Shown: piece by piece, positions 45,242 through 47,219 of the stretch
Numbering within the stretch: position 1 is the stretch's first letter
Layout: the number at the start of each line of letters is the position of its first letter
Assembly (NCBI GenBank): GCA_030019395.1
Contig: JASEES010000001.1
Location: 144,434-208,433 of the forward strand
DNA length: 64,000 nucleotides
Direction of reading: 5' to 3'
DNA from: Methanolinea sp.
Lineage (GTDB): Archaea > Halobacteriota > Methanomicrobia > Methanomicrobiales > Methanospirillaceae
Made by a program: the position numbers and the translations under genes
The notes under the pieces: model-generated
Database searches by the model: none
The model's input: only the letters and a program-made list of their open reading frames with translations
What the model was told of the DNA's origin: nothing

Positions 45242-45553
45242 TCACTCACCCGGCTTGTCCGTTGTGAGGTGGAGGGTAATGATCCCGTTGCATGCCTTGC
45301 ATGCATAGTACTTTTCCGTCCAGCAGGACGCGCAGGCCCACCTCCCGCAGAGGGCACATTGCCTTAGGTCTTTTTTGGGGAAGGTGTCGTTGCACAGGTC
45401 GCAGGAGTAGCGGGAGAAACTGGCAGGGTCGCGCGTGGGGGAATCCCCCTGTCTCCTCACCCTCTGGATATCCTTCCTGATCCGGGAGATGAAGTCCTCT
45501 TCCTTCTTTTTTTCCGGACGGCTACCTGGGGACCTGCTTTTCCAGAGCCTCAA
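45242..45553 (-). CDS. Eight-cysteine FYVE/RING-like zinc-finger protein
   Basis: The 103-residue protein has a basic, Arg/Lys-rich N-terminal half and a finger with spacing CX2C-X11-CX2C-X4-CX2C-X7-CX2C (CDLC, CALCGRWACASC, CKAC). Eight ligands imply two zincs; the CxxCG-x3-CxxC centre recalls FYVE-type cross-brace fingers. The start is TTG 45553 behind GGAGGAGAGG, inside the end of the upstream coiled-coil gene (32-base overlap). It is the last gene of a six-gene operon of unknown function. Confidence 0.7.
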   Translation of the reverse strand: MRLWKSRSPGSRPEKKKEEDFISRIRKDIQRVRRQGDSPTRDPASFSRYSCDLCNDTFPKKDLRQCALCGRWACASCWTEKYYACKACNGIITLHLTTDKPGE

Positions 45554-45860
45554 TCCTCTCCTCCAGCCTTGTCAATTCTTCGCCGAAATCCTTTTCGAAA
45601 GCCTTGAGCGCTGCCATCCTCTCCTCGTCTTTTGCAAGGAGCGGCATCTTTTCATCCCTGAACTGCTCGGCCTGGGAACGGCGGATGAGCGACCATTCCT
45701 CGATGAGCATGTCGAACTTCCGGTCGAGGTACTCGTCGATCCGGCTCTCCAGCGGGCGGGAGATATCCAGCCTGCCGGTAGACCCCCTGAAGTAATAATA
45801 GAGGGTAAATGCTATGACAGCGATGAGAATGAGGACGAGGAGCCCTTCGATGATCGTCAT
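45522..45860 (-). CDS. Membrane-anchored coiled-coil protein with EEW motif
   Basis: The 112-residue protein has an N-terminal membrane helix (GLLVLILIAVIAFTLYYYF, residues 6-24), then the segment IDEYLDRKFDMLIEEWSLIRR (about 40-60) and a heptad-like coiled coil to the end (FGEELTRLEERIEALEKQV). The DEYLDRKF...EEW block recurs in the next two upstream genes. ATG 45860 overlaps the stop of the preceding gene (ATGA). No known family is recognised. Confidence 0.75.
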   Translation of the reverse strand: MTIIEGLLVLILIAVIAFTLYYYFRGSTGRLDISRPLESRIDEYLDRKFDMLIEEWSLIRRSQAEQFRDEKMPLLAKDEERMAALKAFEKDFGEELTRLEERIEALEKQVPR

Positions 45861-46078
45861 TTCCGCCTCCCCCTGATATACTCGAGCCTCTTTTCAAGTT
45901 CGGTAAGCTTTGCCGACGCAGTCGCCTCGAACCCTGCACACAGCCGGGACTCCTCCTCGAGGGAGGAGAGGCGGGATACGAGGTCCCCGAGATCCCGCCG
46001 GGTTGCGAGATCCCATTCCTCGATCAGGTACTTCATGCGACGGTCCACGTAGGAACCAAGGTAGTCCGGGCGCCTCAT
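45857..46078 (-). CDS. Small coiled-coil protein with EEW motif
   Basis: The 73-residue soluble protein carries YLGSYVDRRMKYLIEEWDLA near its N-terminus and then two predicted coiled-coil helices (LVSRLSSLEEESR, KLTELEKRLEYIRGRR). The motif aligns with those in the genes at 45522 and 46075. It is coupled to both neighbours by 4-base overlaps. Function unknown; likely a partner of the membrane-anchored operon members. Confidence 0.7.
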   Translation of the reverse strand: MRRPDYLGSYVDRRMKYLIEEWDLATRRDLGDLVSRLSSLEEESRLCAGFEATASAKLTELEKRLEYIRGRRK

Positions 46079-46392
46079 CGTCCCTCGAGCCCCCTCAGCT
46101 CTTTATCGAGGGCGGCAGCCCTCTTTTCGAGTGCTTTTTGGTTCTTCTCGAGGACATCGATCTGCCTGTGCACACGGTCAAGCCTCCGTTCCAGGTTTTT
46201 CAGGTGAATGGAGGTCACGAGCCCCCACTCGCTGATGATCGCCGGGAAATGCCGGTTGAAATATTCGTCGAGCCCCTTGTCCATCGTCGGGAGATGCTCA
46301 TCGATGACTGCCGGTATTTCCTTTATCGATTCCAGCAGGGGATACTTCTCTGTCGTCCTGCCCGGAGTCTCGTATTCGGTCACCTGTCTCAC
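46075..46392 (-). CDS. Coiled-coil protein with SEW motif
   Basis: The 105-residue soluble protein has KGLDEYFNRHFPAIISEWGL (about residues 39-58), the third copy of the operon motif, followed by a long coiled coil (LERRLDRVHRQIDVLEKNQ, LDKELRGLE). The start is GTG overlapping the upstream stop (GTGA). No family is recognised. Confidence 0.7.
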   Translation of the reverse strand: MRQVTEYETPGRTTEKYPLLESIKEIPAVIDEHLPTMDKGLDEYFNRHFPAIISEWGLVTSIHLKNLERRLDRVHRQIDVLEKNQKALEKRAAALDKELRGLEGR

Positions 46393-46772
46393 CCCAGCCT
46401 TTCCTCTTCGCGTTTTATCTTTTCTATCATCCGGTCGAGCTTTGTGAGAGCGACCCTGCTCTCGAGCCGCTTCAACCTCTTTTCAACGGCAGTGTGCCGT
46501 GCAAATATATCGGTCTCCAGTTCCACGTTCTCCTCGTCGAGCCTTTTTAACTCCTCGAGATCCTGGGGAGATACCCGGTAGAACGGTCGTCCCCGCTGTT
46601 CCAGGTCTGCCTTGAGGAGGTTGATCTTCTCCCGTTCGAGTTCGAGCTGCGCGAGCCGTGTCCTCGAGTACATCAGGCGGAACTCCCTGATAATGAAATA
46701 CACGATGATCAGGCCGATGAAAACGAGGAGATAGGGGAGGATCCCTTCGAAAATCACCCACATGTCTGTCAT
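46389..46772 (-). CDS. Membrane-anchored coiled-coil protein
   Basis: The 127-residue protein has one membrane helix (ILPYLLVFIGLIIVYFII, about residues 10-27) followed by continuous charged coiled coil (LELEREKINLLKADLEQR, LKRLDEENVELETDI, VEKRLKRLESRVAL). It lacks the EEW motif of its neighbours. It lies 18 bases after the Cdc48-N-like gene. The long helix should reach into the cytoplasm and could scaffold the smaller coiled-coil proteins. Confidence 0.72.
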   Translation of the reverse strand: MTDMWVIFEGILPYLLVFIGLIIVYFIIREFRLMYSRTRLAQLELEREKINLLKADLEQRGRPFYRVSPQDLEELKRLDEENVELETDIFARHTAVEKRLKRLESRVALTKLDRMIEKIKREEERLG

Positions 46773-46790: not shown

Positions 46791-47219
46791 TTAGAGGTCT
46801 TTTTCATGGAGGCTTTTTTTCGCAGATTCGACACCTTTTTCCATCGATTCTTTTGCTTCCGACGATTTTTTCGAGATGACTTCCTTTGCCTTCTTTACAT
46901 CCTTTGCGACGCTCTCTTTTGCCTTGTCTGCTGTCTTTTTGACACGTTCGGAAACGGGGGGAACCCGTGTCACCGTCACCACAGCGCCAGACATGGCACC
47001 TGCCTGTGCGATATCTTCCGGGCTTAACCTGATGTACCCCTCTTCGACCAGCTTGTCTGCAAAGACAGTGACGACAACGGGTTTCTTATCCGATCCTGCA
47101 GAGACCTCGACACTGTCGCCTTCGCTGATCCCGAGGGTCTTTAAATGCACCTCGTTGATCCTGGCCCTCCCCCTGCTTGGAAAGGCCCTTTCCTGAACTT
47201 TCAGAGTGATGGACTCCAT
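46791..47219 (-). CDS. Cdc48-N-like double-psi barrel protein with amphipathic tail
   Basis: The 142-residue protein starts with a domain (about 1-88) that follows the VAT/Cdc48 N-terminal pattern: RGRARINEVHLKTLGISEGDSVEV and GYIRLSPEDIAQAGAMSGAVVTV. No AAA ATPase follows. Instead, residues 95-142 form a Lys/Ala/Glu/Ser-rich helix (KKTADKAKESVAKDVKKAKE) similar to LEA or YtxH-type repeats that can bind membranes. A TATA box 22-35 bases upstream of ATG suggests a leaderless mRNA. It heads the six-gene operon. Confidence 0.75.
   Translation of the reverse strand: MESITLKVQERAFPSRGRARINEVHLKTLGISEGDSVEVSAGSDKKPVVVTVFADKLVEEGYIRLSPEDIAQAGAMSGAVVTVTRVPPVSERVKKTADKAKESVAKDVKKAKEVISKKSSEAKESMEKGVESAKKSLHEKDL

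Follow-up and report, generated by a model that had tools for sequence, protein, structure and literature searches.

An unnamed coiled-coil domain shared by three paralogous genes in a conserved six-gene cassette of Methanomicrobiales

Three consecutive small genes of a Methanolinea sp. genome, here named A, B and C, share the EEW domain, which is real, old, conserved and unnamed and is best read as the assembly domain of a membrane-anchored hetero-oligomer. The genes lie in the middle of a cassette of six tightly packed genes in the order V-M-A-B-C-R. We estimate a probability of roughly 0.6 that the old paralogues A, B and C form such a hetero-oligomer through this domain, V and R serving for recognition or regulation. 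A, B and C would pack together via the motif helix and the coiled coil, C and M would each use an N-terminal transmembrane helix to hold the complex on the cytoplasmic side of the membrane, and V (a barrel with a helical tail, extended by a TrkA-C domain in some species) and R would be the likely recognition or regulatory parts. The data show the paralogy, the conservation of the motif, the gene order, the co-occurrence and the domains of V and R, while the hetero-oligomer, its topology and the division of labour are inferred. The cassette probably builds a membrane-anchored protein scaffold. A bolder version, tentative and with the odds against it, sees the cassette as a so far undescribed machine that organises membranes in the Methanomicrobiales; the three co-evolved EEW paralogues would be the core of a lattice or ring at the cytoplasmic face, regulated by V and R and unlike characterised archaeal complexes. 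Small coiled-coil paralogues in operons are common; what is unusual is how strictly the six genes are linked and which domains the partners carry. Three hypothetical genes now belong to a defined six-gene unit, open to testing, within one methanogen order. Should the complex exist, these important methane producers would have a membrane-associated assembly specific to their lineage.

Composition and linkage of the cassette

The window, i.e. the whole stretch of 64,000 nucleotides that was analysed, encodes the cassette on its minus strand:

V, 46791..47219, minus strand: 142 aa; double-psi beta-barrel (residues 3-86) and lysine-rich helical tail (residues 89-138)
M, 46389..46772, minus strand: 127 aa; transmembrane helix at the N-terminus, followed by coiled coil; without the EEW motif
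A, 46075..46392, minus strand: 105 aa, GTG start; soluble EEW paralogue with motif YFNRHFPAIISEWGL; 4-nt overlap with M
B, 45857..46078, minus strand: 73 aa; minimal soluble EEW paralogue with motif YVDRRMKYLIEEWDL; 4-nt overlap with A
C, 45522..45860, minus strand: 112 aa; transmembrane segment, EEW domain and long helix, with motif YLDRKFDMLIEEWSL; 4-nt overlap with B
R, 45242..45553, minus strand: 103 aa, TTG start; Prok-RING_2 binuclear treble-clef zinc finger; overlaps the 3' end of C

The start of R was set so as to match the (L/F)WK start of its relatives. The original prediction placed three segments that align without gaps at 45522, 45857 and 46075, numbers that mark the lower (3') boundary of each gene; all three segments and their gap-free alignment were recovered from the translated minus strand, in C, B and A, respectively.

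V-M-A-B-C occur in this order in all 21 order-level loci, followed by R in 20 of them (L050 is without R). At L032 and L040, non-overlapping ORF picking missed one EEW gene, which those genomes do contain (L004 and L027). The flanks of the 21 loci are quite different, and no further gene family is common to all. In the larger set of 68 named loci, the six genes were found in order in 56 (54 plain and two with a split or doubled ORF), while five of the remaining loci are cut by the contig on the 5' side and L112 is cut on the 3' side. R was not recognisable in six copies (L071, L075, L095, L096, L103 and L106), although the contig runs approximately 4 kb further, and no Cys-rich ORF was found downstream in four of these six, suggesting that R is dispensable for some copies. 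An exact 4-nt overlap is the commonest spacing at both the A-B (39/61) and the B-C junction (44/65), and such start/stop overlaps are typical of translational coupling. Conserved order and coupling equally fit genes of one pathway without physical contact.

The six-gene set is so far known from the order Methanomicrobiales only. A class-level search matched 90 of 232 genomes, all of them from the order of the window, with Methanolinea, Methanoregula, Methanospirillum and Methanogenium among the named holders; no strong homologues were found beyond Methanomicrobiales. Among 295 genomes, V matches at E <1e-30 were confined to those with the cassette, and strong B and strong R matches fell in an identical set of 31 out of 394 genomes in the phylum sample. 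Weak matches in another family of the phylum were rejected as a cassette, being PF05597 phasins and a stand-alone zinc finger. A defence or phage origin was likewise discarded: PADLOC gave no match and PHROGs none that was convincing. Our literature search, which did not cover the 2011 paper that is said to be the source of the Prok-RING families, returned no paper on this cassette. Some genomes carry more than one copy (two or three), such as the draft genome of Methanoregulaceae OWC_0046 with three (L066, L073 and L095), and genomes with 5 to 9 EEW matches likewise point to multiple copies.

The EEW domain and the paralogy of A, B and C

The pattern Y-x-[DN]-x6-[LI]-I-x-E-W-x-L is common to the three consecutive minus-strand genes A, B and C. 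Its strict form, Y[LVF][DN]Rx4[LI]IxEWxL, matches only these three among the 407 window ORFs of at least 60 aa. A chance origin was rejected, as 200 rounds of ORF shuffling gave a mean of 0.0 strict matches against the three observed (mean of 0.02 for the loose form). The motif is kept without gaps in relatives as Y(-12), D(-10), [ED](-1), [WY](0) and L(+2), numbered relative to the Trp. Across 168 sequences of A, B and C, position -12 is Tyr apart from two Phe, position -10 is Asp in 161, positions -11, -7, -4 and -3 are hydrophobic, position -1 is Glu or Asp with one Gln, and position +2 is Leu, Ile or Val. Position 0 holds Trp in 158 and Tyr in 10, and nothing else (168/168). The homologues keep the pattern, and the original prediction thereby withstood its own refutation check; the Trp is invariant in A (54/54), and the Trp/Tyr counts are 51/4 in B and 53/6 in C.

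The motif was originally described as a match of 15 residues. It is real, yet it is no isolated element: profile-profile alignment defines a homologous unit of A, B and C of approximately 70 residues, which begins shortly ahead of the Tyr and extends through the coiled coil to its end. The most likely layout of this EEW domain has Y-x-D...[ED]-W-x-L on a short amphipathic helix, from which a tight turn leads into a coiled-coil helix. After the motif, A and B share the consensus L-[AV]-T-x-x-D-L-x-x-[LF]-x-x-R-L, which reads as a capped helix start followed by heptads. The coiled coil predicted to follow each copy is supported: the family-averaged heptad signal after the motif reaches significance in A (p 0.005) and B (p 0.017), whereas in C it is marginal (p 0.05). 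The AlphaFold2 model of C (59 sequences) has a transmembrane helix at 3-28 and the motif on a helix at 38-56, which a break separates from a single helix at 61-109, at a pLDDT of 76 and a pTM of 0.32, i.e. with fair confidence along the helices, not for their packing.

On the amphipathic helix, the motif Trp lies 7 degrees off the centre of the hydrophobic face when this centre is calculated with the Trp left out. This mid-face position, together with Trp or Tyr in 168/168 sequences, suggests inter-subunit packing instead of an exposed docking surface, and we read the Trp as the probable plug of a helical hairpin or bundle. The original prediction had proposed a binding surface for a common partner. 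In that case, the EEW helix would be an exposed docking segment, and A, B and C would all use the same surface to bind a single external partner (V, R or M, for example). The invariant or nearly invariant charges next to the Trp, D(-10) and E/D(-1), and the identical spacing in the three paralogues agree with docking, but the Trp joins the I/L/F positions in an unbroken hydrophobic stripe that ends at the turn into the coiled coil, and it is replaced by Tyr in 10 sequences. Both the stripe and the Tyr data would also be compatible with an interface buried against V, M or R. Given a Trp on a buried-type helix face next to the coiled coil, and three genes kept in fixed order, we regard docking to a common partner as unlikely, and less likely than packing of the paralogues against each other.

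Profile comparison with hhalign identifies the three proteins as paralogues (A-B 5.6e-16, B-C 2.8e-14 and A-C 2.9e-11). The observed profile scores range from 64 to 83, compared to at most 27.6 after column shuffling in which the heptad position was also kept. These heptad-preserving shuffles, and the poor scores against M, a coiled coil from the same operon, reject generic coiled-coil likeness as the cause. M was also rejected as a fourth EEW paralogue, since its alignment covers the transmembrane segments only. In hmmsearch, a profile built solely from C sequences recovers A in its own genome at 6.1e-7 and also the B beside C; the B profile in turn retrieves C at 3.2e-10 and A at 6.2e-8. A phylogeny of 160 domains supports A (100/99) and C (96/100) as clades and does not reject a single B clade (AU p 0.50); as this tree has few columns and unsettled bootstraps, the coarse clade result alone was used. 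This result fits one old triplication that predates the split of the sampled genera, and leaves a recent tandem duplication or gene conversion among A, B and C unsupported. Judged by their profiles, A, B and C are true paralogues from one ancestral gene, in line with the diverged duplicates that had been proposed.

C and M each have one N-terminal transmembrane segment with K/R on its C-terminal side. In the family alignment of M, the best 19-mer has a mean hydropathy of 2.9, with 4.0 K/R after it and 0 before it; M matched no Pfam or NCBIfam family at 0.001. By the positive-inside rule, this arrangement would place the coiled coils of C and M in the cytoplasm.

Relationship to phasins

No named domain was put forward for the motif originally, and this stands: no family in Pfam or NCBIfam covers the EEW domain or matches it above cut-off, and PDB sequence and PDB fold searches gave no named domain either. 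The solved-structure relatives of C or B are generic coiled coils only, and Foldseek with the AlphaFold2 model of C returned nothing useful. A weak link to the C-terminal zipper of phasins had gone unseen. This PF05597 zipper is the nearest relative found for the EEW domain, and the profile similarity of A and B to it is weak. The PhaF/PhaI phasins (PF05597) comprise a helix, a turn with T-x-x-D/E-L and a short oligomerising coiled coil (PMC3574117), a layout that A and B may share; in PhaF, an amphipathic helix precedes the oligomerising zipper (PMC3574117).

A, B and C could be distant PhaF-type kin that, together with the apolipoprotein-like tail of V, coat a storage body or a membrane domain. 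Pointing in this direction are weak PF05597 matches among the A proteins (24 of 54, best 2.1e-5) and the B proteins (4 of 55), the apolipoprotein matches in 12 of 42 V tails, and the hhalign comparison of B with PF05597 proteins from a different family of the phylum (93%, 2.6e-7), in which no shuffled profile scored as high. However, only the zipper end aligns, over 44 columns in B (2.6e-7), 41 columns in A (8.4e-5) and 22 columns in C (0.0016, at 16% only), and short coiled coils readily produce matches of this kind. The E-W pair falls outside the overlap and is lacking in phasins, and C and M have membrane anchors. At the PF05597 cut-off of 28.8 bits, none of the proteins scanned singly (A, B and C of the window and relatives of A) qualified, the highest score being 17.3 bits. 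PhaC_N matched 0 of 51 genomes of the family, with a match in the Caulobacter control, and a role at PHA granules is disfavoured as these 51 genomes contain no PHA synthase. A phasin-like coat is therefore very unlikely in our view, and a membrane-anchored hetero-oligomer remains the preferred reading.

Another family of the phylum, probably Methanosarcinaceae, encodes a phasin-family protein (PF05597) that is conserved and 107-111 aa long (L137, 3804-4127, plus strand; L139, 3832-4167, plus strand; L140, 3875-4210, minus strand).

The partner genes V and R

V has the same double-psi beta-barrel fold as the VCP/CDC48 N domain (PF02359, PDB 7dg9), resembling the first half of that domain. The V of the window matches Pfam CDC48_N with an E-value of 7.6e-8, just under the curated cut-off, and CDC48_N matches 40 of 42 V family members at 0.01; Foldseek aligned V with the double-psi barrel of Aeropyrum VCP (7dg9) at an E-value of 2.7e-8. 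In contrast to VCP/CDC48, V consists of the barrel alone (approximately 85 residues) with a helical tail, modelled at low confidence, and sometimes a TrkA_C domain. It has no AAA match and, at 142 aa, is too short for an ATPase, so that it shares the double-psi barrel of CDC48/VCP and not its ATPase domain.

In V of Methanospirillum stamsii and of two uncultured Methanomicrobiales lineages, a C-terminal TrkA_C domain was found above the Pfam cut-off (L100, 2238-3047, plus strand; L089, 2384-3088, plus strand; L078, 1960-2697, plus strand). The TrkA-C domain is known for small-ligand binding in other proteins, and its presence on some V proteins suggests ligand sensing.

R is a clear member of Prok-RING_2 (PF14445), with an E-value of 1.1e-25 and 90 bits against a family cut-off of 22.4 bits. 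It follows the pattern CxxC-x11-CxxC-GRWA-CxxC-x7-CxxC, and the spacing CxxC-x11-CxxC-x4-CxxC-x7-CxxC is kept in 59 of 62 relatives. With eight Cys and no His, R departs from the C3HC4-type ligands of RING E3 ligases, and its CxxC-x4-CxxC spacing is nearer to FYVE than to classical RING. E2 (PF00179) gave 0 matches in the genome, with control genomes likewise without a match. Compared to other Prok-RING_2 proteins, the strong matches in the phylum sample accompany this cassette only, which gives Prok-RING_2 a fixed genomic context in Methanomicrobiales.

The domains of V and R also raise membrane protein quality control as an explanation, in which the V barrel and the R finger would recruit or mimic CDC48/proteasome adaptors on a membrane scaffold of A, B, C and M. 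The match of the V fold to VCP N barrels and the placement of R in Prok-RING_2 accord with it, and the genome encodes two full-length CDC48 candidates (open frames of 802 and 815 aa) and a proteasome gene. Double-psi barrels, however, are present in many unrelated proteins, and the all-Cys ligands and finger spacing of R tell against it as well, making this explanation quite improbable. V and R are more readily seen as recognition or regulatory components of the hetero-oligomer.

A weaker, stand-alone Prok-RING_2 zinc finger of 64-70 aa, above the PF14445 cut-off and outside any cassette, was found in another family of the phylum, probably Methanosarcinaceae (L143, 3618-3812, minus strand; L144, 3630-3842, minus strand).
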